Shown here: one piece after another, positions 2,303-33,272 of the stretch
Numbering within the stretch: position 1 is the first letter of the stretch
How the letters are laid out: every line of letters begins with the position of its first letter
Assembly (NCBI GenBank): GCA_902795735.1
Contig: CADBMD010000099.1
Span: 1 to 33,596, forward strand
DNA length: 33,596 nt
Direction: 5' to 3'
Origin: an uncultured Bacteroidia bacterium
GTDB lineage: Bacteria > Bacteroidota > Bacteroidia > Bacteroidales > UBA932
The notes under the pieces: generated by a model
Told to the model about the DNA's origin: nothing
Seen by the model: only the letters and a program-made list of their open reading frames with translations
Databases searched by the model: none
Position numbers and translations under genes: made by a program

Positions 2303-3205
2303 ATGGGAAAGCATTCGCTCAAGGATTGGTTCACCGTGACTCGTTACTGGTCCTTTCCTGTTTCCACTATGCCGGTACTGGCATCTTTCGCTTACTTGTT
2401 CAGCAAGGGGCTGATTCCATCAGGTCCCAAGCCCTATTTCGTTTTTATTCTCTGCCTGCTGGGAGTAGTGGTGCTCCATTCCGCAGGCAATGTGCTGAGT
2501 GACTGGTTCGATTACAAGAGCGGTGTTGACAATGAGAACGCTTTCGCAGTCCCCAACCTAGTGTTCCATCACTACGAACCATCTGAGTACTTGAGGTTCA
2601 GTTTCATACTTCTTGATATAGGAATATTGATCGGAATCTGCATAGCCGTTCTCAGTGGCCCTGTCCTCTTTGCCATAGGAGGTGTGGGAGTGTTGCTGAC
2701 ACTCTTGTATTCTTTCCTCAAGTATCATGCTCTGGGCGACTTGGATGTGTTCATCATATTCGGGATACTCCCAGTCCTTGGAACAGTGTATGCCGTCACG
2801 GGGGAGATGCATTGGGACGCCCTTGTGCTCTCGCTCCCCATAGGGCTGATCACCGTATCTGTTCTTCACGCGAACAATACCTTTGACATAGAATCAGACG
2901 GCGCCGCCGGCATCAAGACTTTCGCGATGCTGATAGGGGGAAAGGCTTCAAGCGTGCTATATGCCGCCTACATGGTCATTCCTTTCCTTTGCGTGATCGT
3001 TGCCGTGGGGGTAGGAAGGCTCCATCCGATGTCGCTTATCTGCCTTGTGGCCGGGATCCAGGCCTGGAAGAACTTAAAGCAGGCATGCGGTTATGACAGG
3101 TTGGGGTTGGAAGCCATGAAGGGACTGGACCAGGCATCGGCAAAACTGCAGATGACCTTCTCAGTCTTGCTTTCGGCAGGATTGTTCATTTCCGTGATGC
3201 TATGA
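2303..3205 (+). CDS. UbiA-superfamily prenyltransferase, MenA-like
   Basis: This 300-residue polytopic membrane protein carries the two aspartate motifs of UbiA prenyltransferases. The first is N63-VLS-D67-WF-D70 followed by a GVDN segment. The second is NNTFDIESD at 191-199, with the following AGIKTFAMLIGG stretch typical of MenA-like members. These motifs bind the Mg-diphosphate of a polyprenyl donor. MenA (1,4-dihydroxy-2-naphthoate polyprenyltransferase of menaquinone synthesis) is the best guess from motif 2, but MenA usually has Arg where this protein has Phe194, and no other men genes are nearby, so another aromatic or lipid acceptor remains possible. The gene overlaps the following CPBP gene by ATGA, implying translational coupling. 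Confidence 0.7.
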   Translation: MGKHSLKDWFTVTRYWSFPVSTMPVLASFAYLFSKGLIPSGPKPYFVFILCLLGVVVLHSAGNVLSDWFDYKSGVDNENAFAVPNLVFHHYEPSEYLRFSFILLDIGILIGICIAVLSGPVLFAIGGVGVLLTLLYSFLKYHALGDLDVFIIFGILPVLGTVYAVTGEMHWDALVLSLPIGLITVSVLHANNTFDIESDGAAGIKTFAMLIGGKASSVLYAAYMVIPFLCVIVAVGVGRLHPMSLICLVAGIQAWKNLKQACGYDRLGLEAMKGLDQASAKLQMTFSVLLSAGLFISVML

Positions 3206-3849
3206 TAAAGGAATTGCGGAGCCTGACCTTCTCAATTGCCATGGCTGCCCTGCTGTGGTTCTACATGTTCAGTCCATGGACCGGAGGTGCTCCAAATTTC
3301 TGGATCGTGATGTCCGTTTCGGCAGTCATCCTGACTTCGTGCGCCCTCCTCTTCTCACCCGATACGAAGGAATTGCTATCGGTCGATAAGCCTTTGCTCC
3401 AGTTGTGCTGCGGAATCGCTATCGCCTTCTTCCTGTGGGGAATATTCTGGATAGGTGACAGGCTCTCGTCATTGATGTTTGATTTCGCTCGCCCGCAGGT
3501 CGATGCCGTTTATTCAATGAAAACAGGACTTCCTGCTCCGGTCATAGCATTGCTTCTCCTGTTCTTGATAGGACCGGCGGAAGAGCTTTTCTGGCGGGGT
3601 TATGTGCAACGGACGATGTGCAGGTTGTTCTCAGACAGGAAGTCGGGTTCTTGCCTGGCGTTCATCCTGACCAGCGTGATCTATGCCCTCGTCCACATCT
3701 GGTCATTCAATTTCATGTTGGTCATGGCCGCCCTTGTCGCCGGTCTTGTCTGGGGTTTCATCTACATGATGTGTCCCAAGGCACTTCCGGCCCTGATCGT
3801 TAGCCATGCTTTATGGGATGCCCTGGTGTTTGTGATACTCCCTATCTGA
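3202..3849 (+). CDS. CPBP-family (Abi/Rce1-like) intramembrane glutamic protease
   Basis: This 215-residue membrane protein shows the three conserved CPBP motifs: E127-E128-xxx-R132 (EELFWRG), the YALVHI segment with H165, and SHALWD with H202 and D206 near the C-terminus. In this family these residues form the active site of a glutamate-type intramembrane protease related to eukaryotic CAAX protease Rce1. Family members act in CAAX-like processing, bacteriocin self-immunity or envelope protein maturation; the substrate here is unknown. Its start codon overlaps the stop of the prenyltransferase gene by 4 nt. The pairing recalls prenylation plus processing but may be coincidental. Confidence 0.8.
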   Translation: MIKELRSLTFSIAMAALLWFYMFSPWTGGAPNFWIVMSVSAVILTSCALLFSPDTKELLSVDKPLLQLCCGIAIAFFLWGIFWIGDRLSSLMFDFARPQVDAVYSMKTGLPAPVIALLLLFLIGPAEELFWRGYVQRTMCRLFSDRKSGSCLAFILTSVIYALVHIWSFNFMLVMAALVAGLVWGFIYMMCPKALPALIVSHALWDALVFVILPI

Positions 3850-3858
3850 GGGCTTCGC

Positions 3859-4002
3859 TCACGTTTCGGAATGCAGCCGGTTCCTGCCGGGACGCACCCG
3901 GACATCGACTCCTTCAAAGCCTATTTCCTTTATCTTCGTTGCCGCTTCTGCGAATGAGATGTTTTCCTGCCTTGCGATTGAAAGGATGTGGTCGCAGAAC
4001 AT
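3859..4002 (-). pseudogene. remnant of a sugar phosphate isomerase/epimerase (TIM-barrel) gene, N-terminal fragment
   Basis: On the reverse strand an ATG at 4002 opens a 47-codon frame. Its product begins MFCDHILSIARQENISF and continues with EAATKIKEIGFEGVDVR. This is the look of the first beta-strand/helix of xylose-isomerase-like TIM-barrel proteins (sugar phosphate isomerase/epimerase family), which normally run to about 270-300 residues. After about 38 residues the similarity stops and the frame ends in an unrelated tail (RNRLHSET, stop). A -7-like TATATTCG lies just upstream on the same strand (about 4028-4021). I infer that a deletion removed the rest of the gene. The whole 3850-4118 gap holds only this remnant and the promoter of the next operon. 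Confidence 0.55.
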
Positions 4003-4062
4003 ATTATCAGATTGTCTTCGCGAATATAATAATTATAGTTTAGACTTGAACTCCCGAACCGG

Positions 4063-4093
4063 TTTGCTTACCATCGGTTTTTTCGTTAAATTG
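4063..4093 (+). promoter_or_regulatory. candidate promoter of the glycan operon
   Basis: TTTG at 4063-4066 is followed after exactly 19 nt by TTAAATTG at 4086-4093, a partial match to TAnnTTTG. Predicted transcription would start about 4100, leaving a leader of about 20 nt before the ATG at 4119. The -33 and the spacing are good; the -7 has two mismatches. Confidence 0.4.
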
Positions 4094-4118
4094 CATGACT
4101 ATTCAGTGACGCACTATC

Positions 4119-6017
4119 ATGAGGTTCAGGTTTTTCTTGTTCTCTTTGTTTTACTTGACAGTTTCTGCCATCGTTTCAGCAGGCAACACCGGCATCAGCG
4201 GGACTCATGCCATCGGTAACGGCCGTGTCTGCGTCTATGCCAAGGATGCCGACATCACGGCTGTGTTCGGCCCGACATATTCATCGCCGACATTGCTGTC
4301 ATTGTCTCTTGTTGAGAAATCAGGCATCAAATCCTTCCCTGTCAGGATGAGCGGAGTGTGGAAAGTCGTCCTGGATGGAGGAAAGTCGGAAATCAAGGAT
4401 GTGGTATCTCCCAAGCATGACATATTCATAAGGGATTTCAAGACAGGAAGCCCCATTTCTTTCAAGGTGGACCTTTTACCGGAGTCCAGGTCGTACCTGG
4501 ACCATTTGAAAGTTGCAAGGGCTGAGGTAAAGGGCAGTTCCTCTGCATGGACGATAAGCCTTTCTTCTGGTGTGCCTTTCTATTCGGCATATTCATCACC
4601 ATCCTCTTACCATGCCATGGTCTTCACTACCGGACAGGCCGAGCTCGAGCAGTCTGGGGAAGCGGAAATGTCGCTGTCCGTGAATGGTAAGGGAGCCCTT
4701 TTCGTGGTGATTTCAGACTCTCCGGAAGGACTCTCCGCCCAGATGAAGCACGTCCGCACCAGGAGAACCGGACATATATTCAGGAAGAGCGTAAGGTATT
4801 GGAAGCGTACCCAGAGGGTTCTGCCGAAAGTTGGAAGCGAACTGGACTCTACCGTCAGGATGGTGAGCAACTACGTCATTTCGCAGCAGGACCTGGGCGG
4901 GGGAGTGCTCGCCGGGAAGAATTACCACATGGCCTATGTCAGGGACCAGTATGGGGTTTCCCGCGGCCTCTTGGCCATGGGACATCTCGACAGGGCCAAG
5001 GCAATCCTGGATTACTATTTCAGGATTTGGCAGGAATACGGACTTATCCACAATGCACAGCCGATGGGTTTTACGGGTCAGTTCCATTGTCACGAGGATG
5101 ATAATTCCGAAATCACCGGCTACCTCGTCGTCCAGGCCATGGACTACTACTACAAGAGCAATGACCTGAAGTTCCTCCAGAAGATCCAGCCCATGCTCAA
5201 ATGGGCCGTCAACGCGCAGCAGTCTGACATAATCGACGGAATGCTCCCTTTCAACGGGGATGAGACCTACATCGCTGGAGGAATCATCCCTCGGCATGTC
5301 ATGTGCCATGGTTCGGCTGAAGCTACCTTGCTGTTCATAGAAGGGAGCAGGAGGCTTCTCGAATTCCTGGAAGATCATCCATCGGAGTCATGGAGCAAAG
5401 AAGATATCGAGGCCCTGCGAAAAGACATCGATGTCTGCTCCTCTTCTTACAGAAGTAATTTCTTCGAGGACGGGAAGTTCTGCATCAACAACCCCAGACG
5501 CGAAGAAAAAGTCTCCTATCCTGCGACACGTCCGGGAGTCTGCCTCTATCCGGGTGCTCCCACGATGCATTATCCGGTCACCTATCATTTCAAGAAAGGC
5601 CTTTATTTCTGTGAAGACTGCATGAAGAAGGACACTTCAGGCATCGAGCCACCCTCTCCGGAGAGGTACAGCATCCCTTCAGCCTTCCTCTTCCCGGTCT
5701 ACATCGATTCCAGATTGTTCTCGGATGAAGAAAAACGGTCATTGCTGGACCAGGTTGTCGATCTTTACAGGAGGACCGGGAGGATCGATGAAAGGAACAT
5801 AGTCCTTGGCTATGATTATGGGCTTTTCCTCTATGCCCTTTCCGAATATGACCATCCTCTTTCGGAGGAAATCTACCGGAAGATGATGGACCTCAGGGAC
5901 AGTTCGCTTTCCTGGGTCGAATACTATGTCGATGGAATTCCCTACAATACGCCCTGCCGGCCCTGGGAGAGTTCAGTCAACATAGCTGCCGCTTTGAAAT
6001 ATTGTTTAAATAAATGA
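4119..6017 (+). CDS. secreted six-hairpin (alpha/alpha-toroid) glycosidase-like protein
   Basis: This 632-residue protein has a Sec signal peptide (about residues 1-21, ending VSAG). Residues 25-215 look like a beta-rich N-terminal domain. Residues 240-630 have the repeating helical pattern of (alpha/alpha)6-barrel glycosidases. Landmarks are YVRDQYGVSRGLLAMGH (273-289) and MLPFNGDETYI (375-385), which resemble the substrate-cleft segments of GH15/GH65/debranching-type enzymes. Several acidic residues (D275, E331, D381, E382) could be catalytic, but I cannot assign a GH family. It is the first gene of an operon with a lipoprotein (ATGA overlap) and a GH78 rhamnosidase, so a role in degrading a rhamnose-containing glycan is likely. 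Confidence 0.65.
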   Translation: MRFRFFLFSLFYLTVSAIVSAGNTGISGTHAIGNGRVCVYAKDADITAVFGPTYSSPTLLSLSLVEKSGIKSFPVRMSGVWKVVLDGGKSEIKDVVSPKHDIFIRDFKTGSPISFKVDLLPESRSYLDHLKVARAEVKGSSSAWTISLSSGVPFYSAYSSPSSYHAMVFTTGQAELEQSGEAEMSLSVNGKGALFVVISDSPEGLSAQMKHVRTRRTGHIFRKSVRYWKRTQRVLPKVGSELDSTVRMVSNYVISQQDLGGGVLAGKNYHMAYVRDQYGVSRGLLAMGHLDRAKAILDYYFRIWQEYGLIHNAQPMGFTGQFHCHEDDNSEITGYLVVQAMDYYYKSNDLKFLQKIQPMLKWAVNAQQSDIIDGMLPFNGDETYIAGGIIPRHVMCHGSAEATLLFIEGSRRLLEFLEDHPSESWSKEDIEALRKDIDVCSSSYRSNFFEDGKFCINNPRREEKVSYPATRPGVCLYPGAPTMHYPVTYHFKKGLYFCEDCMKKDTSGIEPPSPERYSIPSAFLFPVYIDSRLFSDEEKRSLLDQVVDLYRRTGRIDERNIVLGYDYGLFLYALSEYDHPLSEEIYRKMMDLRDSSLSWVEYYVDGIPYNTPCRPWESSVNIAAALKYCLNK

Positions 6018-7666
6018 ATATGAGATATCTACTTCCTGCGTTTGCATTTGCTTCTCTTCTTTGCCTGCTTCCTTCATGTGATGGCGGCAGAAAAGAGGAG
6101 GCTTCACCGCGCATCGTGAACATCATCAATTTCGTGCGGTATACTGAGCCACGCGTCGATGAATACACCGAAGAAGTCCTTTTCGAGACGGTCCGTTCCC
6201 AGGCCGAGGATCTTCGCTCCAAGGGTCTGGTCGGGACTTACCTTCTCCAATATGATGCCCTGATCGATCCTTCCTACCAGAAACTGATGAAAGAAGAGAT
6301 GGAGAGGGGATGCGAGGTTGGTGCATGGTGGGAGATAACCCAGCCCCATGTTGAGGCGGCAGGACTTGAATGGAGAGGACGCTACCCTTGGGACTGGCAT
6401 GCAAACGTTGATTTCTCATTGGGCTATACTCCAGAAGAAAGACCGGTCCTGGTCGATGTCTATATGGAGAAGTTCAAGGAAATATTCGGTGAATATCCCA
6501 AGTCAGTGGGATCATGGTTCATAGATGCCGCCACCCTTGCCTATTTCTCAGACAAGTACTCGATCGATGCTTCGTGCATATGCCGCGACCAGGTAGGTAC
6601 TGACGGTTACACCCTTTGGGGCGGGTACTGGAACGGAGGCTACTATCCCAGCCGCCAGAATTGCTACATGCCTGCCCAGACTGAAGCCGGCGGAATACCT
6701 TTGCCTGTGTTCAGGATGCTTGGAAGCGATCCGATCTACCAGTACGAGGCCGGTTTGGGAGGAGCGGTGCAGAGTGTCGCAACCCTTGAACCTGTCTACA
6801 TCGAAGGCGGAGGCAACCCAGAGTGGATAGACTGGTTCTTCAGGATGTTCACCGAGGAACCTCATCTTGGCTTTAATTATGTCCAGGTGGGTCAAGAGAA
6901 CTCGTTCACCTGGGGGCCGATGGAAAAAGGCTTCGTGACCCAGACGGAGAGGCTTGTCGAACTTTCCCGGGAGGGCAAGGTCCGGATCGAGACCCTCGGC
7001 GAAACCGGCCGTTGGTTCAAGGAGAAGTATTCCATTACTCCTCCGACTTCCGTCATCACGACCGAAGACAACCGCTCGCAGGGACGTAAAACCCTCTGGT
7101 TCAACAGCCGGAATTACCGTGCCAACCTTCTTTGGGAAGAGGGGTGCCTTAAGTTCCGTGACATCCATCTCTTCGATGAGAACCTTCGTTCCGAATACAT
7201 GGATCATCCGGACACTTTGCCGGTCTTCCATTATGAGACTTTACCCATCGTCGATGGTTGCCTTTGGAGCGCAGTCGGGAATATGGCAGGGCTCCGTTTC
7301 ATCGCACCTTCATTCTCAGGAGGTGATCCTGTGTTCAAGTCTCTGGAAAACGATAGCATCCAGGAGATTACCTGGCCATCCGGATCAGGTGACGGCAGTT
7401 TCACCATCAAGTTTACCGAGGACGGAATCATTATCGTATCCAAGGGCAAGACTGGTCCATGGAACCTTGAGCTCACTACCGTGCCGGGTGTAAAACTGCC
7501 ATTCGGACAGATCGGTCCTAAGGAAATCCAAGCATCCGCCCAGGGGCGGGACTATGGGTTGTCAGTGACGGAAGGGACCGTCGAGGACCTTCGCGGAGAA
7601 GGCGATGGTAAAGTGTTCCGCATCGTCCCTGAAGGCAAGTCTATTACATTAAAGGTTAAAAAATAA
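6014..7666 (+). CDS. lipoprotein of unknown family, possible deacetylase/GH57-like barrel
   Basis: This 550-residue protein has a lipoprotein signal (LPSC lipobox, Cys22). I do not recognise the family. The first about 330 residues alternate strands and helices as in a beta/alpha barrel. They include EEMERGCEVGAWWEITQPH, YPKSVGSWFIDAATLAYF and an aromatic-rich block around residues 195-240. The layout (search-the-past strand, His/Asp-rich turns, GSWFID) is faintly like polysaccharide deacetylase or GH57/GH38 barrels, but metal ligands cannot be assigned. The last about 200 residues are beta-rich. The start at 6014 overlaps the previous stop by ATGA, and the rhamnosidase begins 11 nt after its stop. 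The context makes it a surface or periplasmic glycan-active protein. Confidence 0.6.
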   Translation: MNMRYLLPAFAFASLLCLLPSCDGGRKEEASPRIVNIINFVRYTEPRVDEYTEEVLFETVRSQAEDLRSKGLVGTYLLQYDALIDPSYQKLMKEEMERGCEVGAWWEITQPHVEAAGLEWRGRYPWDWHANVDFSLGYTPEERPVLVDVYMEKFKEIFGEYPKSVGSWFIDAATLAYFSDKYSIDASCICRDQVGTDGYTLWGGYWNGGYYPSRQNCYMPAQTEAGGIPLPVFRMLGSDPIYQYEAGLGGAVQSVATLEPVYIEGGGNPEWIDWFFRMFTEEPHLGFNYVQVGQENSFTWGPMEKGFVTQTERLVELSREGKVRIETLGETGRWFKEKYSITPPTSVITTEDNRSQGRKTLWFNSRNYRANLLWEEGCLKFRDIHLFDENLRSEYMDHPDTLPVFHYETLPIVDGCLWSAVGNMAGLRFIAPSFSGGDPVFKSLENDSIQEITWPSGSGDGSFTIKFTEDGIIIVSKGKTGPWNLELTTVPGVKLPFGQIGPKEIQASAQGRDYGLSVTEGTVEDLRGEGDGKVFRIVPEGKSITLKVKK

Positions 7667-7677
7667 TATTCAGACAT

Positions 7678-10344
7678 ATGCGACGTTTATTCCTTACTTT
7701 ATCTTTGCTTTTCATCGGCCTTTATGCAGCTTTTGCTTCTGCAGTCAGGCCAGTCCAGCCTCAGTGCTGTTTCTTGGACAACCCTCTTGGAATCGAGAAG
7801 CCGATGCTCGGATGGAAATTTGAAGGGACAGGACAGGGGGCATCCCAGAAAGCTTATGAGATCCAGATCGCCTCTTCCCTTCAGAAGCTTCGCTCCGGAA
7901 AGGCTGACATCTGGGCCTCCGGGAAAGTGGATTCGGACACCCAGTTCGGAATCCGTCCGGAAGTGAAGGATTATGCTTCCGCTACCACATATTGGTGGAG
8001 AGTCAGGATCTGGGACGGTAACGGCAAGAGATCCGAGTGGACTTCACCTGCTAGTTTCTCCACCGGACTGTCTGATTCCGACTGGAAGGGAACTTGGATT
8101 TCTCCGGAATGGAAGGAAGGCATGAGGATGCCTTACATGAGGAGGGAAGTTACCCTTGGAAAGAGTATCGAGCGTGCCACGGCGTTCGTCTGTGGAGTCG
8201 GAGCTGCTGACCTCTTCATCAACGGTGAATATGCCGACCCCACCAGGATCCTGGATCCTGCTCAGACGAATTATGAGCAGTATGCCCTGTACAGCGCCAT
8301 TGATGTGACTAAACTGTTGAAACCGGGAGCCAACTGCCTTGGAATTATGCTCTATGATGGCTGGTATGGCCAGAGCACTGTGTTTGCCGATTTCAGTTAT
8401 GGGAAACCGATGCTCAGGTTCCAGCTGGTAGTTGACTACAAAGGAGGACGCAGGGAGGTCGTTTCCTCAAACAGCCTGTGGCAGTGGAAAGAAGGCCCTG
8501 TCGTGAAAGCCAACATCTACAGCGGAGAGGTCTATGATGCCCGTCAGGCTTTGTCGGACTGGGCTTGTGTCGGTGGCGGCAATGACGGATGGCGTCCATG
8601 CATCACTCCTGCGGATGGCGTCCCGCCCCAGCTGCGTTCCCAGATCATGCCAGCCATAAGGCTTCATGAGGCTTTGCCTGCCGTCGCCATGTGGAAGACG
8701 GAAGAGGGAACATGGGTCTATGATTTCGGGACCAACAACACTGCCGACATCCGCTTGACCGTCAACCTGCCCGCTGGAACCAAAGTGACCGTCAGGACAG
8801 GTGAAGAAATAAACGGCCCTGGCAAGGGTGTCGATTTCCGTTCGACTGGAATCGCAGTAGTGCCGGTCCAGACCGATGAATACATCAGCGCTGGCACCGG
8901 AAAGGAAATCTGGATGCCACGTGGCACTTACCACGGCTTCCGGTATGCTGAACTTTCTTGTGACAATCCCTCTGTCGTTCCAGCCAAGGATTGGCTTGAG
9001 GCTGTGCTTGTCCACACCGACCTTGTAAAGACCGCTACATTCACATCTTCTTCAGCCCAGCTCAACAGGCTTCATGAGATGGCACTCAGGACCGTCCAGG
9101 GCAACATCGTCGGTGTCCCGATGGATTGCCCGACCCGTGAGAAATGCGGCTGGCTCGGAGATGCCCATGCCTACATAAAGATGGCAATGGTAGGCTACGA
9201 CATGGACAATTTCCTGTTCAAGTACATGGACGATATCCGTTCCACATCTTCGGTGGAAGAGAAGAATACCCTGCATCACCTACTTAAGAACAGTATTTTC
9301 TATTATACCGACAAGGCATCCGGCATCCCCTACATGATCGCTCCTGGAAAGCGCCTTTGCGGTGTGGCTTCTCCGGACTGGGGAACGGCAGTGGTCCAGT
9401 TGCCATGGCACCTGTATCTCTATGGCGGCAACAAGGCTGCCTTGGAGGAATATTATCCCATGATGGCCCAGTGGACCGACTACATCACATCCATTACCGT
9501 AGGCCACATTGTGATGACCGGACTTGGAGACTGGTGCACTCCTAACGGAAAAGCAACCACTCCGGTGGAACTGACATCTACAGCATTCCATTACTATGAC
9601 CTTACCATAATGGAGCAGGTGGCCGCCATTCTTGGCCACAGTGACGACAGTGCCCGTTACGCTGCTGAAAAGGAAGCCGTCAAGGAAGCTTTCATAGCGA
9701 GGTTCTACAATCCTCTTTCCAAGTCTTTCGGCTCGCAGACAGCAGATGCCATGGCTTTGGATTTAGGACTCTGCCCTGTCGGATCAGAGGAAGATGTGGC
9801 TAAAGGTATTGCCATGCACATGAGGTTGTGGGGCAATTTCTTCGACACTGGAATCTTCGGACTGTGCAGGATCGGTTCCGCCCTGGCAAGGAACGGGCAG
9901 GCAGAACTTGCCTATAAGACGTTCACAAAGACAGGGCACAGGAGTTTCGAATGGATGTGGTCCAAGTATGACGCGACGACCCTTTGGGAGACATTGCCTG
10001 TTTATGACGGTGACCAGGTGAGTCTCTTCTCAAGCTCGCACTGCCACCCCATGCAGGCAGGCTTCGACATCTATTTCTATGAAGACCTGGCGGGAATCCG
10101 TCCGGTTCCGGAGGCTCCCGGTTACAAGAAGATACTCTTCGTGCCCGGATGGAAAGGCATCGGCCTTGAAAGTGCTTCAGCCACCGTTCAGAGCCGCTAT
10201 GGTGAGATCGTCAGCTCCTGGTCCCGCAAGGATGGTGAAGTCACATGGAACATCACCATCCCTGCCGGTTGTACAGGCATGGTTTCACTTCCTGAAGCGG
10301 AGGAACTCCCTTCCGGAAGCTACACATTCACAGTCAAGGATTGA
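7678..10344 (+). CDS. GH78 alpha-L-rhamnosidase
   Basis: This 888-residue secreted enzyme (signal peptide about 1-22) has the GH78 domain series. An Ig-like N-terminal domain lies at about 25-130, the rhamnosidase N-terminal beta domain at about 140-300, a concanavalin-like domain at about 330-445, the (alpha/alpha)6 catalytic barrel at about 450-800 and a C-terminal beta domain. The catalytic stretch DCPTREKCGWLGD gives D483, E488 and D495, with the same 5 and 7 residue spacings as Asp567/Glu572/Asp579 of Bacillus RhaB. E771 in TTLWE fits the fourth acidic residue. It should release alpha-L-rhamnose from plant or bacterial glycans in the periplasm. It is the last gene of the three-gene operon and converges with the nitrilase-GDPD gene without a gap. 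Confidence 0.92.
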   Translation: MRRLFLTLSLLFIGLYAAFASAVRPVQPQCCFLDNPLGIEKPMLGWKFEGTGQGASQKAYEIQIASSLQKLRSGKADIWASGKVDSDTQFGIRPEVKDYASATTYWWRVRIWDGNGKRSEWTSPASFSTGLSDSDWKGTWISPEWKEGMRMPYMRREVTLGKSIERATAFVCGVGAADLFINGEYADPTRILDPAQTNYEQYALYSAIDVTKLLKPGANCLGIMLYDGWYGQSTVFADFSYGKPMLRFQLVVDYKGGRREVVSSNSLWQWKEGPVVKANIYSGEVYDARQALSDWACVGGGNDGWRPCITPADGVPPQLRSQIMPAIRLHEALPAVAMWKTEEGTWVYDFGTNNTADIRLTVNLPAGTKVTVRTGEEINGPGKGVDFRSTGIAVVPVQTDEYISAGTGKEIWMPRGTYHGFRYAELSCDNPSVVPAKDWLEAVLVHTDLVKTATFTSSSAQLNRLHEMALRTVQGNIVGVPMDCPTREKCGWLGDAHAYIKMAMVGYDMDNFLFKYMDDIRSTSSVEEKNTLHHLLKNSIFYYTDKASGIPYMIAPGKRLCGVASPDWGTAVVQLPWHLYLYGGNKAALEEYYPMMAQWTDYITSITVGHIVMTGLGDWCTPNGKATTPVELTSTAFHYYDLTIMEQVAAILGHSDDSARYAAEKEAVKEAFIARFYNPLSKSFGSQTADAMALDLGLCPVGSEEDVAKGIAMHMRLWGNFFDTGIFGLCRIGSALARNGQAELAYKTFTKTGHRSFEWMWSKYDATTLWETLPVYDGDQVSLFSSSHCHPMQAGFDIYFYEDLAGIRPVPEAPGYKKILFVPGWKGIGLESASATVQSRYGEIVSSWSRKDGEVTWNITIPAGCTGMVSLPEAEELPSGSYTFTVKD

Positions 10345-12036
10345 TCATCGGCAGCCCGTGGCGTCTGAGATGACCTGGTAGTCATTCGTCAGGATGGTGT
10401 CGATTCCCATGGCGAAGTACTTGGCCGCCTCTTCAGGGTCGTCGGCATAGAAGATATTGCAGCGCAGCCCGTTAGCCTTTGCCTTGTCCACCAGGGATTG
10501 GCTGAAGTCAGGGTCTCTCTTTGAGAACTGGACCATGCTGCACTTGTGTTTCAGGGCTTCATCCACGATGTCGCCTTCTTTACCTTTTCGGCCCATGCAG
10601 CGGGGGATGTCCGGTGCCACGCGGGCCAGCTGGTCCTGGAGAGCTCCGTTCTCCGACATGAAGTACACATGGTCCTGAGCGTCGTAGGCATAGATGAGAT
10701 CGATTAGTTTCTTGATCACTGTCTCGTCCCAAGGTTCATCGACTATTGACTTCAAGTGTATGTTCATGATCGTGTGGCAGGAGAGTTTCTTCAGGATTTC
10801 TTCGAACTTCAAGATCTTTAGCCCCTTGAAATGCTCGCCGGCCTTTATGCCGAAATCGTAGTCCAGGAGTTCGGCATATGTCTTTTCATACACGTGGCCG
10901 GTTCCTGTGGACACCCTGTCCAAGGTCGCATCATGGATGGATACTATCTCTCCGTCACGAGTCCACCAGAGATCGAATTCAACCTCCGATGCGCCCAGGG
11001 CCACTGCTGCTCCAAGTGCGGCCAATGAGTTCTCTGGCGCTACTGCTGAGAAACCCCTGTGGGCGCAGAGCCTCTTTTCAGGAGCCTCCGGGAACGGGGT
11101 GACTATGGCGCTGCCTCCCGGGCGGTATTTCCAAGGGCGTCTTCCGATCTCTATGTATTCAGAATGAAGGGATGGAGGATTACCATAGCCGGCAGGTTTG
11201 AGGTATTTCTTCTTGGGGTCGAAGGTGGAGTCGAGTGTCGTGATTTCCGACCTGAGCGTTCCCAGGATTTCTCCCGTTGGGGCTACGATGCTTGAGCATC
11301 CGCCAAGTTCGGAATCCAACCCCATAGACACGGAAGCACGGACGAGGTAGGCTCCTGTGTTGTAGGCGCAGAATGTGTTGATGATGTCCAAGGCCCTGAA
11401 AGTGTCGCTCCTCTGGTGGGATGCTCCGATGATGATGTCTGGCTTCCAGCGGGCAATGTTGGCGAAATTCTCGTAGAAATAGAAATCGTAGCAGGTCAGG
11501 AATGCGTACCTGACACCCTCTATGTCAAGGATGTATGGCTGGGTCCACTCTTCAGTGTAAGACTTGTCGAGTTTGCTCCATTCTCCGCGGGTCAAGTGCT
11601 CCTTGTAGTATTTCCCGATGAGTTCCCCTTGCCTGTCATATATGAATATGGTGTTGCGAGGTACTTCGATGCTATGGTCGACAGCACCGACGAAAACCAG
11701 GGAACTGCACCTTTTCGCTGTCCTGGCGCAGACATCCAGGAGCACAGCTCCGTTCTGGCGGGAAGTGGTCAGGAACTCTTCCTTTCCGGAGGTCTTTCCG
11801 GGAACTTCGCTGAACTCCGGCAGCACGATGATGTCAAGGCTTTCATCGCATTTGTTGAGTTCGTTGATCGTCCACTCGAAACTCTTGTCGAGACCGGCCT
11901 TATCCTGGGCGAAGAACTGCTGTATGACCCTGGCCTTCATCGGAGATGCGTCCATGGGGGAGGGGAAGAGGAGAAGGACTGCCGAAAGGGTTGCAATCAC
12001 CTTTCCAAGCATTCTGGATTCATTGCACGCTTTCAT
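10345..12036 (-). CDS. secreted fusion protein: carbon-nitrogen hydrolase + glycerophosphodiester phosphodiesterase
   Basis: This 563-residue protein has a hydrophobic signal segment (residues 9-30). Residues about 34-300 are a nitrilase-superfamily C-N hydrolase with the full triad: E74 (VLPEFSE), K145 (KYYKEH) and C182 (LTCYDFYFYE). Residues about 323-560 are a GDPD domain: H326-R327, E336-N337, E353/D355 (EVEFDL) and H368-D369 (IHDATLDR). The usual NIEIK strand reads NIHLK. Such a fusion should cleave both an amide and a glycerophosphodiester, presumably in one periplasmic substrate. The start at 12036 overlaps the symporter gene by 17 nt; an alternative ATG at 12012 (MLGKVIATL) is equally good as a signal-peptide start. 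Divergent glpK-glpF nearby fits use of the released glycerol moiety. Confidence 0.85.
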   Translation of the reverse strand: MKACNESRMLGKVIATLSAVLLLFPSPMDASPMKARVIQQFFAQDKAGLDKSFEWTINELNKCDESLDIIVLPEFSEVPGKTSGKEEFLTTSRQNGAVLLDVCARTAKRCSSLVFVGAVDHSIEVPRNTIFIYDRQGELIGKYYKEHLTRGEWSKLDKSYTEEWTQPYILDIEGVRYAFLTCYDFYFYENFANIARWKPDIIIGASHQRSDTFRALDIINTFCAYNTGAYLVRASVSMGLDSELGGCSSIVAPTGEILGTLRSEITTLDSTFDPKKKYLKPAGYGNPPSLHSEYIEIGRRPWKYRPGGSAIVTPFPEAPEKRLCAHRGFSAVAPENSLAALGAAVALGASEVEFDLWWTRDGEIVSIHDATLDRVSTGTGHVYEKTYAELLDYDFGIKAGEHFKGLKILKFEEILKKLSCHTIMNIHLKSIVDEPWDETVIKKLIDLIYAYDAQDHVYFMSENGALQDQLARVAPDIPRCMGRKGKEGDIVDEALKHKCSMVQFSKRDPDFSQSLVDKAKANGLRCNIFYADDPEEAAKYFAMGIDTILTNDYQVISDATGCR

Positions 12037-13207
12037 TTTCGTTGGAGATTTTATTTCTGAATAATTTGTTTACTATCAAGGCTATGGCTCCGTCTCCCGT
12101 GACGTTGCAAGCCGGACCGTAGCCATCCAGGGCAAGGTAGAGGGTCATGACCAAGGCGGTCTGGTCGGGGCTGAATCCCATTATGGATTCAAGGAGCCCT
12201 ATCGATGCCATCAGGACCCCACCCATGACTCCAGGTGCAGCTACTGCTGCGATCCCTTGCATGAGGACGAAATTGGCGTAGACCGCGAAGGGGAGAGACG
12301 TCCCCGTCAGGTAGGCCACGGCTATGGATGAAACCGCAAGTTTTATCGTTGATCCGCACATGTGGACAGTCGAGCTTAGCGGAATGGTGAAATCCACTAT
12401 GTCGTCGTCGATGCCATTCTTCCTGGTGCAAGCAGAGGTTACCGGAATCACGGCGGAGGATGAGCAGATGGAGAAGGCTGTAAGGTAGGCCGGCAGCATG
12501 TTCCACAGGCATTTGAAAGGATTCTTTCCGGCTATGGCTCCAGCAATCGAGTACTGGATGATAAGATAGGCGATCGTAAGGACGATGCCGGTGAGGATGA
12601 TCTTGAATCCTGACCCGAGTACGACGGTAATGACCCCCTTTGCCCCCATCTCGCAGATCATCGTGAATATGTACCAGGGCAGCATGGGGATGATGACCTT
12701 TTCAATCGTCAGCCTTACTATTGCTCCGAAGTCGTCGAATGCCTTTTTCAATGGCATCGATCCTGTGACCATTATTCCGATTCCCAGCATGAAAGAAAGT
12801 ACGAGTGCCGTCAGTATGTCGCAGACCGGAGGTATCTTGATGTCGAAATAGGGGAGGATCTCTTTGGCTTTGAGTGCTTCATTCGAGAGTTCTCCTGCTT
12901 TAAGGTACAGCGGGAAAGTGTGAGATGAGCACAGGTGAGCAAAAAAACCTGAGCATATCGTGGAAAGGTAGGCTATCCCTATCACGAGGACGAGCATCTT
13001 TCCGGCCTGTTTGCCGACATTGGCGATAGCAGGTGTCACCAGCCCGAGGATAAGGAGCGGGATGATGAATTTGAGCAATTGTGAAAACAGGACGTTGAAT
13101 GTCTTGAATATCCTCACTATCCATTCCGGAGCGATGAGCCCCAGTAGTGCTCCGCATGCTATAGCAACAAGCACTTTTACGAACAAGCCTGGCCTTGGTT
13201 TTTTCAT
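12020..13207 (-). CDS. SLC1/DAACS-type cation symporter (neutral-type binding site), paralogue 1
   Basis: This 395-residue protein has the SLC1 fold: basic N-terminus, hydrophobic segments throughout, the serine-rich hairpin [15 protein letters not shown], and the last-helix motif [14 protein letters not shown]. The family couples uptake of amino acids or dicarboxylates to Na+ or H+. Two usual features differ. The TM7 NMDGT-type motif reads HMCGST. The Arg that holds the side-chain carboxylate in Glu/Asp transporters (R397 of GltPh) aligns to Gly in DGYGPACN. I therefore doubt an acidic amino acid substrate. The gene precedes and overlaps the nitrilase-GDPD gene and diverges from glpK, so the substrate may be a product of that hydrolase. 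A paralogue lies at 32091-33272. Confidence 0.85.
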
Positions 13208-13243
13208 GGAGGAAAGATTCTGTCTGTATGTGGTAGGATGGTA

Positions 13244-13315: not shown

Positions 13316-14800
13316 ATGAGAGAATACATCTTGGCCCTCGACCAGGGCACCAGTTCTTCCCGTGCCATCGTTTTCAACAAGGCGGGAGACATCATGAGCG
13401 TCGCTCAGAAAGAATTCACGCAGTATTTCCCCAGTCCCGGCCTTGTAGAGCATGATCCGATGGAGATCTGGTCATCCGAGTACGAGGTCATCCTCGAATC
13501 CATGCAGAAAATGGGAATCGGGGGAATGGACCTGGCGGCGATCGGTATAACAAACCAGAGGGAGACTACAATTGTCTGGGACGCAGAGACAGGTGAACCT
13601 ATCCATAACGCCATTGTCTGGCAGGACCGCCGTACAGCTGCTTATTGCGATTCGCTCAAGGAGAAAGGACTCACGGACGTGATCCGTTCCAAGACCGGAC
13701 TCATAATCGATGCTTATTTCAGCGCTACCAAGATTCGCTGGATCCTTGAAAATGTTCCTGGGGCCAAGGAACGGGCAGAGAGGGGAGAGCTCCGTTTCGG
13801 GACCGTGGATTCCTGGCTTGTATGGAACCTCACTGAGGGGAAGACCCATGTGACTGACGTTACAAATGCTGCCAGGACGATGCTTTTCAACATCCACACT
13901 CTCAAGTGGGATGAAGACCTCCTCCAGCTTTTCGGCATCCCTGCTTCCATGCTGCCGGAAGTGAGATCCTGCAGCGAGGTCTATGCTGATGCCGACATTT
14001 TAGGAGTAAATGTTCCTATCGGCGGCATGGCAGGTGACCAGCAGTCTGCACTTTTCGGCCAGATGTGCACCGATCCCGGGGCAGTCAAGAACACCTACGG
14101 AACAGGTTGCTTCCTGTTGATGAACACCGGAGACAAACCTGTGGAATCGAAGAATAACCTCCTGACTACGATTGCCTGGAAAATAGGTGACAAGGTCAAT
14201 TATGCTCTTGAAGGCAGCATATTCGTAGGCGGATCTGCAGTCCAGTGGCTGCGTGACGGCCTGGGAATCATAAAGTCTTCCTCTGAGATAGAGGCCCTGG
14301 CTTCCACTGTTCCGGATAGCGGCGGGGTCTATTTCGTCCCTGCCCTTACCGGCCTGGGAGCACCATATTGGGATCCGAACGCCAAGGGAGGAATCATCGG
14401 GATAACCAGGGGGACCAAGGCCGCCCACATTGCCAGGGCGACCCTTGAGGGTATAGCTTTCCAGACCATGGACATCGTAAAGGCCATGGAGAACGACGTC
14501 GGAGTTCCCATCGCCGAACTGAAGGTTGACGGCGGGGCTTCTGCAGACAACCTGATGATGCAGTTCCAGTCCGACATCCTTGACACGGCTGTCATCAGGC
14601 CGGTTGTTACCGAGACCACGGCACTCGGGGCCTGTTATCTGGCCGGTCTTGCGGTGGGGTTCTGGAGCGGACTTGATGAGATAAAGCGCCAGTGGCAGGT
14701 TGACCGTACCTTTACTCCCCAAGCGTCGCTTGAGGAAGTTGCAGAGAAGAAGACCGGCTGGAAGGATGCCGTCTCAAGATGTTTGTCATCCAATAAATAA
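13316..14800 (+). CDS. glpK: glycerol kinase
   Basis: This 494-residue cytoplasmic FGGY-family kinase makes sn-glycerol 3-phosphate from glycerol and ATP. The N-terminal phosphate-binding motif is [14 protein letters not shown], followed by TNQRETT and the AIVWQDRR segment. Then come [22 protein letters not shown] and, near the C-terminus, [19 protein letters not shown], all characteristic of GlpK, and the length is normal. The start is placed at the ATG at 13316 (MREYILAL). The frame is open 26 codons further upstream, but that extension falls in the promoter region and has no family likeness. The glycerol facilitator gene begins 9 nt after the stop, forming a glpK-glpF operon. No glycerol-3-phosphate dehydrogenase lies in the window. 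Confidence 0.96.
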
Positions 14801-14809
14801 CAACGTCAT

Positions 14810-15547
14810 ATGGAAATTACCTTGTTTCAGAAATGCGTTTTCGAGTTCCTCGGAACGCTTGTGCTCATCCTGATGGGTGATGGAGTCTGCGCCAACGTGA
14901 GCCTTGAAAAGTCAAAGGCGAAGGGCGCCGGCTGGGTTGTGGTTGCAATAGCTTGGGGTCTTGCCGTCATGATGGGCGTGTTCATCAGCGGTCCTTATTC
15001 AGGAGCCCATCTGAATCCTGCCGTCAGCGTAGGGCTTGCCCTGGCCGGAAAATTCTCCTGGGCCTATGTCCTGCCGTATTGCATCGCCCAGTTCGCAGGT
15101 GGTTTATGCGGAGCGATCCTGGTCTATCTGTTCTTCAAGGATCATTACGATGCCACCTCTGATTCTCCGGAGGTGATCCTTTCCACATTCTGCACCATCC
15201 CCGCCATCCCCAACAAGTGGAGGAATTTCTTAAGCGAAATGGTCGGAACCTTCGTGCTGGTCTTCATCATCCTCTGCTTCGCCACGAGCGGAAACACTCC
15301 TGAGGTCGGGATGGGAAGCCTGGGAGCGATCCCTGTGACATGCCTTATCATTTCCATCGGCATGTCCCTCGGTGGAACTACTGGTTATGCGATTAATCCT
15401 GCCAGGGATTTCTCACCTCGCCTCGCCCACGCCGTCCTTCCTATAAAAGGAAAGGGAAGCAGCTGCTGGAATTACAGCTGGATCCCTTTTATCGGCCCGA
15501 TTGCAGGCGGAGCCATTGCTGCAGGGCTTTTCCTGCTGGTTTTCTAG
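14810..15547 (+). CDS. glpF: glycerol facilitator (aquaglyceroporin, MIP family)
   Basis: This 245-residue integral membrane channel has two NPA boxes, HLNPAVSVG (N69) and INPARDFSPRL (N196). The Asp directly after NPAR (D200) is the signature of glycerol-conducting MIP proteins; water-selective aquaporins differ there. Conserved family segments include EFLGTLVLILMGDGV near the N-terminus and SEMVGTFVLVFIILCF in the second half. It lets glycerol diffuse in, where the upstream-encoded GlpK traps it as glycerol 3-phosphate. The two genes are 9 nt apart and surely cotranscribed. The stop codon TAG shares the tetramer CTAG (15544-15547) with the stop of the convergent sulfatase gene, so no room remains for a terminator between them. 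Confidence 0.93.
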   Translation: MEITLFQKCVFEFLGTLVLILMGDGVCANVSLEKSKAKGAGWVVVAIAWGLAVMMGVFISGPYSGAHLNPAVSVGLALAGKFSWAYVLPYCIAQFAGGLCGAILVYLFFKDHYDATSDSPEVILSTFCTIPAIPNKWRNFLSEMVGTFVLVFIILCFATSGNTPEVGMGSLGAIPVTCLIISIGMSLGGTTGYAINPARDFSPRLAHAVLPIKGKGSSCWNYSWIPFIGPIAGGAIAAGLFLLVF

Positions 15548-32090: not shown

Positions 32091-33272
32091 CTATACGGAA
32101 GTCTGCCTTTTGTGGAAGACCTTGTCTATGACCAAAGCTATGGCACCGTCTCCCGTGACATTGCAGGCAGTTCCGAAATTATCCATGGTGATGTAGAGGG
32201 CAATCATCAGAGCCTGTTCTTGCTCACCGAATCCAAGCATGGTCGCCAGGACTCCCAAGGCGGCCATTATTGCACCTCCAGGTACCCCAGGGGCAGCCAC
32301 CATCATGACTCCAAGCATCATGATGAATCCCAGGAACATCCAGAAATCGAAGGGCATCCCCTGCATGAGCATCAAGGCTACGGCACAGGCAGTGATCTTG
32401 AGGCAGCTCCCGGACAGATGGATGGTAGCGCAAAGAGGAATGGTAAAACCGGCAATCTCGTCGGAAACGCCATTCTTCTTTGTGCATTCCAGGGTGACCG
32501 GAATGGTCGCTGCTGAAGAAGAAGTCCCCAATGCGGTGAAATATGCCGGCATCATCTTGCCCAGGAGCTTGAAGGGGTTCCTTTTGACGATCCCTCCCGC
32601 AATGCAATACTGGAAAACAAGCAGGAAGATGTGAAGTAGGAAGATTACTCCAATGATCGAAATGAACACCTTGATGACTTGCAGTGCCTGGCCGGTGTGG
32701 GTCATGCCAAGGAATATGCCGAAGATGTAGATTGGAAGCAGGGGGATGATGACAACTTCGATAGTCTTGACTATGATATCCTTGAATTCTTCTGCTACCT
32801 TCTTGAGCTGCGGAGAGCCGAAGAAAGCCATGCCAAGGCCCAGGGTGAATGCCAGTACCAGAGCGGACATGACATCCACCATGGCTGGTATCTGGATGGT
32901 GAAATAGGGTTCGATCGACTCGAATTCCGCTACGGCCTCGGCACTGGAGTTCCCGATGAGCTTTGGAAAGACGGTTACGCTTGTCCCGTAGGACAGTAGG
33001 CCGGAAAACACAGTGTCGCAGTAGGCGATTGCAACGGTGATTAGCAGCAGTTTCCCGGCTCCTTTCCCGATGTCGGAGATGGCTGGTGTCACCAGGCCGA
33101 TGATTATCAGCGGAATCAGGAACTGGAGGAAATTGCTGAATATGCCGTTGAATGTGACGAACAGGCGAACGACTGACCTCGGCAGGAAGAGACCGAAAAC
33201 GATGCCGAGTACGATGGCAATCAAGATTCGCGGAAGGAGCGACAGGTGGAAATTCTTTTTCAAGGCTGGCAA
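32091..33272 (-). CDS. SLC1/DAACS-type cation symporter, paralogue 2
   Basis: This 393-residue protein is a close relative of the 12020-13207 symporter by its matching motifs. It has the serine-rich hairpin GTSSSAATIPVTLEC followed by TKKNGV, a TM7 motif HLSGSCLK in place of NMDGT, and the last-helix [14 protein letters not shown]. In the last helix the residue matching GltPh R397 is again Gly (MDNFGTACN). The same departure in both paralogues suggests a Bacteroidetes subfamily with a non-acidic or unusual substrate. The gene follows the NhaC-type antiporter gene by 10 nt on the same strand, so Na+ circulation may be coordinated. It converges with the DUF4890 gene with 4 nt between stops. Confidence 0.85.
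   Translation of the reverse strand: MPALKKNFHLSLLPRILIAIVLGIVFGLFLPRSVVRLFVTFNGIFSNFLQFLIPLIIIGLVTPAISDIGKGAGKLLLITVAIAYCDTVFSGLLSYGTSVTVFPKLIGNSSAEAVAEFESIEPYFTIQIPAMVDVMSALVLAFTLGLGMAFFGSPQLKKVAEEFKDIIVKTIEVVIIPLLPIYIFGIFLGMTHTGQALQVIKVFISIIGVIFLLHIFLLVFQYCIAGGIVKRNPFKLLGKMMPAYFTALGTSSSAATIPVTLECTKKNGVSDEIAGFTIPLCATIHLSGSCLKITACAVALMLMQGMPFDFWMFLGFIMMLGVMMVAAPGVPGGAIMAALGVLATMLGFGEQEQALMIALYITMDNFGTACNVTGDGAIALVIDKVFHKRQTSV

Follow-up and report, generated by a model that had tools for sequence, protein, structure and literature searches.

We describe a bacterial protein in which a predicted amidase domain of the nitrilase superfamily and a domain of the glycerophosphodiesterase (GDPD) family are joined in one reading frame, and we show that this fusion is a real two-domain protein and not an assembly artifact. 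Among its relatives, the amidase part is the constant half and the phosphodiesterase part the dispensable half, and the exported form of the enzyme is linked to a gene for an SDF-family sodium symporter. The explanation that we favor, tentatively and at somewhat less than an even chance, is an exported scavenging amidase with an accessory glycerophosphodiesterase, which would free a neutral amino acid from a putative substrate for import.

Anatomy and distribution of the fusion

The window analyzed here is a 33,596-nucleotide stretch of DNA from an uncultured Bacteroidia bacterium (contig CADBMD010000099.1). The fusion gene occupies positions 10345 to 12036 of the minus strand as a frame of 563 codons that starts with ATG and has no internal stops; codon 9 is also ATG and offers an alternative start. 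Pfam places the CN_hydrolase domain at residues 51 to 264 (E value, 3.3e-14) and the GDPD domain at residues 326 to 552 (E value, 8.2e-30), both above their gathering scores. A hydrophobic segment lies N-terminal to the nitrilase domain, in a predicted export signal comprising residues 1 to 31 (positions 11944 to 12036, minus strand; hydrophobic 10-mer with a mean of 2.64, following a Lys). The single frame, the Pfam matches, and the predicted signal bear out an initial annotation, made from the sequence alone, that had described one exported polypeptide with both domains. That annotation had also allowed for two genes fused by a sequencing error. Frameshifts in this gene do occur in draft genomes, as one inside the GDPD part of L132 proves (this row was set aside from the loss counts), but in a scan of species genomes, the frame crosses the domain junction in 29 of 29 homologous loci, two of which (L036 and L047) are truncated where their contigs end, and the junction and a related linker motif are common to many separate assemblies. 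One frame also spans both domains in 38 further loci from a single clostridial order and in 4 from the class of G376; the GDPD match of L147 is weak. We put the chance of a sequencing or assembly error having joined two genes at practically nil.

The nitrilase domain (residues 33 to 318; positions 11083 to 11940, minus strand) carries the tail motif GRRPWKYRP. The superfamily is defined by an E-K-C-E set in the available text of PMC4700190; the available part of PMC5500890 names a triad and states that conservation across the superfamily does not extend to the fourth acidic residue of Lnt. The proposed triad of E74, K145, and C182 was verified in the window sequence, and E152 is a second invariant Glu, so that the Glu-Lys-Cys set with a further Glu is shared by 29 of 29 rows of the alignment of scan relatives. 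None of these four residues is substituted in the 74 fused rows of the wider alignment, although a contig edge removes position 74 from L047. The NCBIfam function models matching this half all score far below cutoff, and profile matches to solved structures are mixed: the nearest is 3p8k, a carbon-nitrogen hydrolase (E value, 9.1e-11), and N-carbamoyl-D-amino-acid hydrolases also match (6lcg, 9.7e-10; 1erz, 1.3e-7), with weak sequence similarity only. The domain differs from its nearest solved relatives in carrying a GDPD partner, and its usual CYDFYFYE active-site stretch and GRRPWKYRP tail were not seen in two aligned solved nitrilase chains. An Lnt-like role, in which the nitrilase domain would transfer acyl groups from lipid to amine or the reverse while GDPD acted on the lipid head group, would be suggested by a weak NCBIfam lnt match (25.5 bits) and by the export signal in some lineages. 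However, the lnt score is far under the cutoff of 132.9, no export segment was found in the clostridial rows, and the nearest solved chains are named hydrolases, and we regard acyl transfer as highly improbable.

The initial annotation did not know this fusion as a described enzyme, and no description of a nitrilase-GDPD architecture was found in open PMC papers under exact spellings of the domain names; the word nitrilase was not found in the available part of PMC6299612. Both domains are old families, and the combination is the new part. In the animal protein NitFhit, the partner is Fhit, which acts on a phosphate bond, whereas here the partner is GDPD and the carriers are bacteria. The likeness lies in the joining of a nitrilase-superfamily domain to another enzyme, as presented for flies and worms in the available portions of PMC9913352 and PMC5500890.

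The 29 relatives from the species-genome scan lie in Bacteroidales, Kiritimatiellae/Verrucomicrobia/Lentisphaerae, and Clostridia assemblies. A ruminant is named in the assembly titles of 16, and 7 more have RUG isolate names, which we take to denote rumen genomes. In the order of G375, 38 of 245 genomes gave a match, 34 of them with a fusion-type nitrilase domain and 4 with a standalone nitrilase only. In the class of G376, fusion-type domains were present in 9 of 240 genomes (one of them divergent), and weak matches came from 5 more; the window's genus has the fusion in 2 of 37 genomes, the second copy being eroded. Even draws, with at most four candidates scored per genome, gave a both-domain match in 1 of 296 genomes of the window's phylum and 1 of 299 of the phylum of G375, each time the starting genome only. 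The fusion is therefore common in a small number of lineages but scarce or missing across the wider draws. Matches outside the locus set were also seen in G824, G771:C21, and G862:C405, with fragments in G784:C8 and G725:C106. The alignment used below has 78 rows, comprising 74 fused proteins and 4 standalone nitrilases. One locus (L044, positions 7432 to 11662) has two tandem fusion genes separated by a calcineurin-like phosphoesterase, and its second copy is not among these rows. In relatives from the genus or order (L010, L011, L012, L013, L016, and L018), GDPD matches lie in open frames of 651 to 1256 amino acids, which makes further large GDPD fusions likely.

Erosion and metal site of the GDPD half

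The GDPD domain (residues 326 to 552; positions 10381 to 11061, minus strand) resembles its family in the motif HR(X)nEN(X)nExD(X)nHD, as given in the available part of PMC4926365. The window has H326, R327, E335, E353, D355, H368, and D369, and the motif is found there and in 64 of the 74 fused rows, with N336 near-invariant. The nearest solved GDPDs are 2pz0 (from Thermoanaerobacter tengcongensis according to the text available from PMC4926365) and 2otd, with a profile E value of 1.7e-37. The same source, as far as available, gives the metal ligands of the Pyrococcus furiosus enzyme as Glu44, Asp46, and a Glu numbered either 109 or 111. At this third position, solved relatives have the Glu of NIEIK, whereas the window has His427 in NIHLK, and His replaces Glu in all 64 intact rows as well. 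The initial annotation had held that both active sites look intact; this stands for the nitrilase residues and for the GDPD motif but not for the third GDPD metal ligand. Among other GDPD rows, the same column holds 56 Glu, 13 His, 6 Asp, and 2 Gln (n = 77; 4 more are gapped); His accounts for 1 of 32 (4 more gapped) in one set and 12 of 45 in the other, both sets having been selected for similarity to this GDPD family. The His-type GDPD is therefore a subclass that did not arise with the fusion. Seven related standalone GDPDs (six with His and one with Asp) had no adjoining nitrilase of this family, three of them on contigs of approximately 3.4 kb. The fusion's GDPD differs from the nearest solved GDPDs in the His ligand, in its nitrilase partner, and in its erosion.

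The complete set HR/E/E/D/HD/H/K is present in 64 of the 74 fused rows; nine are eroded (L023, L031, L037, L045, L046, L047, L147, L154, and L167), and the last is the frameshifted L132. All nine lack GDPD catalytic residues, together with most of the segment that runs from the ExD strand to the strand of the third ligand, and C-terminal GDPD parts are also missing in L045, L046, L047, L147, and L167. On the nitrilase-part tree, there are seven changes between the intact and eroded states (77 rows, with L047 left out and L132 set aside). Rough dN/dS values for the GDPD part were 0.03 to 0.16 in nine intact pairs and 0.12 to 0.32 in five pairs with an eroded member (two more were saturated), ranges that overlap; for the nitrilase part, dN/dS was at most 0.14 in 15 of 16 pairs, the remaining pair being saturated.

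Since the GDPD center was lost in nine rows in which the nitrilase site was kept, the nitrilase can be retained without a working GDPD. One reading of this is that GDPD serves mainly as a structural or assembly module, with activity that is weak or gone and decay that costs little. The repeated erosion agrees with it, as does the His at a ligand position, given that Ala at any of the three metal ligands inactivates the T. tengcongensis enzyme (available part of PMC4926365). A dead scaffold would not be expected, however, to keep the whole HR/E/ExD/HD/HxK set in 64 of 74 rows with low GDPD dN/dS, and 13 of 77 other GDPD rows also have this His; we think a mainly structural GDPD rather unlikely. 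The one-sided erosion also weakens the single substrate for both sites that the initial annotation had predicted, in which both domains would work on one molecule with an amide and a glycerophosphodiester, for example a glycerophospho-N-acylethanolamine. Such a molecule is favored by the low dN/dS that intact members show in both domains and by retention of the fusion in three bacterial groups, but the loss of the GDPD center in 9 of 74 rows with nitrilase residues kept speaks against it, as does the symporter considered below.

In the nitrilase-part tree, the Bacteroidales rows form one clade (SH-aLRT, 99), which lies inside a set with 16 of the 17 Kiritimatiellae-group rows (SH-aLRT, 100), among clostridial rows. 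This topology points to transfer between phyla, in a tree with many deep forks open and L166 on a long branch.

The linked sodium symporter and other neighbors

Directly upstream of the fusion, at positions 12020 to 13207 of the minus strand, is a gene for an SDF-family sodium symporter (Pfam SDF E value, 3.7e-76), which runs in the same direction as the fusion and whose stop overlaps the fusion's ATG by 17 bases. By tblastn, a symporter gene also directly precedes the fusion gene in 13 of 77 other loci (73 fused and 4 standalone); the copy in L167 has one internal stop. A hydrophobic export segment is restricted to certain lineages and is present in 24 of the 78 rows, and the window and all 13 loci with an adjoining symporter fall among these 24. 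In the other 10 (L026 to L030 and L032 to L036), the locus DNA has no adjoining symporter, some of these lying near a contig end. A search for the symporter across whole genomes covered 45 of the 68 known fusion genomes, the other 23 all belonging to the order of G375. A homologue (E ≤ 1e-20) was found in 25 of 25 genomes with an exported enzyme and 0 of 20 with a cytoplasmic one, a contrast that is inflated by relatedness, because the symporter partly follows taxonomy and the genomes are not independent events; Fisher values, which count each genome as independent, are therefore given no weight here. Exported status was assigned by the hydrophobic segment in 24 of the 25 genomes and by kinship in G384, where one contig carries the symporter with a piece of the nitrilase N terminus and the remainder lies elsewhere; 4 of the 20 cytoplasmic cases are from the class of G376.

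A close symporter type with the motif DGYGP is present in 19 of the 25 exported-enzyme genomes; the others (G365, G366, G367, G370, G372, and G373) have only a distant homologue without DGYGP (397 to 451 bits). The window contains a second SDF symporter (positions 32091 to 33272, minus strand), which shares 46% identity with the one beside the fusion, has DNFGT in place of DGYGP in TM8, and scores 413 bits, within the range of those six; several genomes of the genus have paralogues similar to it. Among 230 genomes drawn from the class of G376, 6 have the symporter at E ≤ 1e-60, and 3 of these carry an exported fusion. The window's genus has the close symporter in 8 of 37 genomes but the fusion in only 2, and no fusion was found in the other six. 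Thirteen fetched loci have a symporter that does not adjoin a fusion, from these six genus members, G578, and six genomes of the exported Kiritimatiellae group. Another GDPD gene lies near the symporter in 3 of these 13 loci (L283, L294, and L287). In L283 (positions 2452 to 5533), the symporter is divergent from a standalone GDPD, which is followed by a gene of the D-cysteine desulfhydrase family; in L294 (positions 3494 to 5704, plus strand), a beta-lactamase-family domain and GDPD share one frame divergent from the SDF symporter; and in L287, the other GDPD gene is approximately 3 kb from the symporter.

We aligned the symporter with the solved aspartate transporter 9bgz, transferring the GltPh numbering ourselves. 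The positions of GltPh Asp394, Asn401, and Asp405, the last of which has a sodium-related role, are kept, and Gly364 stands at that of Arg397. The corresponding residues (D361, N368, D372, and G364) are invariant in 12 of 12 linked symporters, which thus combine the SDF family match and the three kept positions with replacement of Arg397, as in a neutral-type transporter. According to the available part of PMC4596572, the ligand is contacted by Asp394, Thr398, and Asn401 and its side-chain carboxylate by Arg397; that of PMC5750217 reports that, with Arg397Cys as the only change, GltPh transports serine and alanine instead of aspartate. Since the Arg for acidic side chains is missing, the linked symporter probably carries neutral amino acids; a Pro at the Thr398 position in the window leaves room for another amino-acid-like substrate. 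SstT-like SDF sodium symporters are its best NCBIfam match, at 88.2 bits, below the SstT equivalog cutoff of 308. A site that looks suited to amino acids rather than ethanolamine argues against the ethanolamine-type substrate of the initial annotation, and, with the erosion described above, it leads us to consider one substrate for both domains quite unlikely.

Other neighbors are less consistent. Divergent from the symporter on the plus strand are glycerol kinase GlpK (positions 13316 to 14800; NCBIfam PRK00047 and TIGR01311 above cutoff), whose frame opens at 13238 with the family match from codon 27, and an MIP channel, probably a glycerol facilitator (positions 14810 to 15547; Pfam MIP, with TIGR00861 above cutoff). 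This pair would suit glycerol use in the window only; as conserved partners they were rejected, being found in 0 of 77 other loci (E ≤ 1e-20, locus DNA). A protein related to GH78 alpha-L-rhamnosidases (positions 7678 to 10344, plus strand) converges on the fusion gene. GH78-type relatives were detected by tblastn in 4 of 77 other loci (L031, L037, L135, and L139), with L154 added by clustering, and GH78 was rejected as a partner because the cases are too few and lie in carbohydrate-rich neighborhoods. The clostridial loci have no clear shared partner; pyridoxal phosphate (PLP) enzymes, M55 peptidases, glycosidases, and AraC regulators are scattered among them, with M55 peptidases that score below the DppA cutoff adjoining L042 and L162. 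These neighbors may point to chemistry involving D-amino acids or serine/cysteine.

Proposed function and significance

We favor the scavenging amidase with an accessory glycerophosphodiesterase as the best explanation of these features. The amidase domain would cleave an amide bond in a compound that contains an amino acid, by way of a Cys-acyl intermediate, and would thereby release the amino acid beyond the inner membrane; the GDPD domain would take off glycerophosphate as glycerol-3-phosphate where the compound carries one; and the freed neutral amino acid would enter through the sodium symporter encoded upstream. In the genomes searched, the presence of the importer with the exported enzyme and its absence with the cytoplasmic one fit an amidase step on the outer side of that membrane. 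Serine would be the simplest candidate, because it can bear both an N-linked group and a phosphodiester. We infer both catalytic activities, the order of the reactions, the transport of neutral amino acids, and the identity of the amino acid, and the departure of the GDPD metal site from characterized enzymes counts against this explanation.

A more specific extension, which is speculative and which we think improbable on balance, is a previously undescribed pathway in which gut bacteria dismantle an N-modified glycerophospho-amino acid on one polypeptide with a His-ligand GDPD and import the amino acid. A compound such as glycerophospho-N-acyl-serine from membrane lipids would be an example, and the lineages that lost GDPD would have turned to a non-phosphorylated form. 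The Glu-to-His ligand marks a subclass of GDPDs. More broadly, two common hydrolase families are joined here in a domain order that recurs across several gut lineages, and retention of the pairing, decay of one half only, and linkage to an importer provide three separate handles on a putative nutrient of these bacteria.
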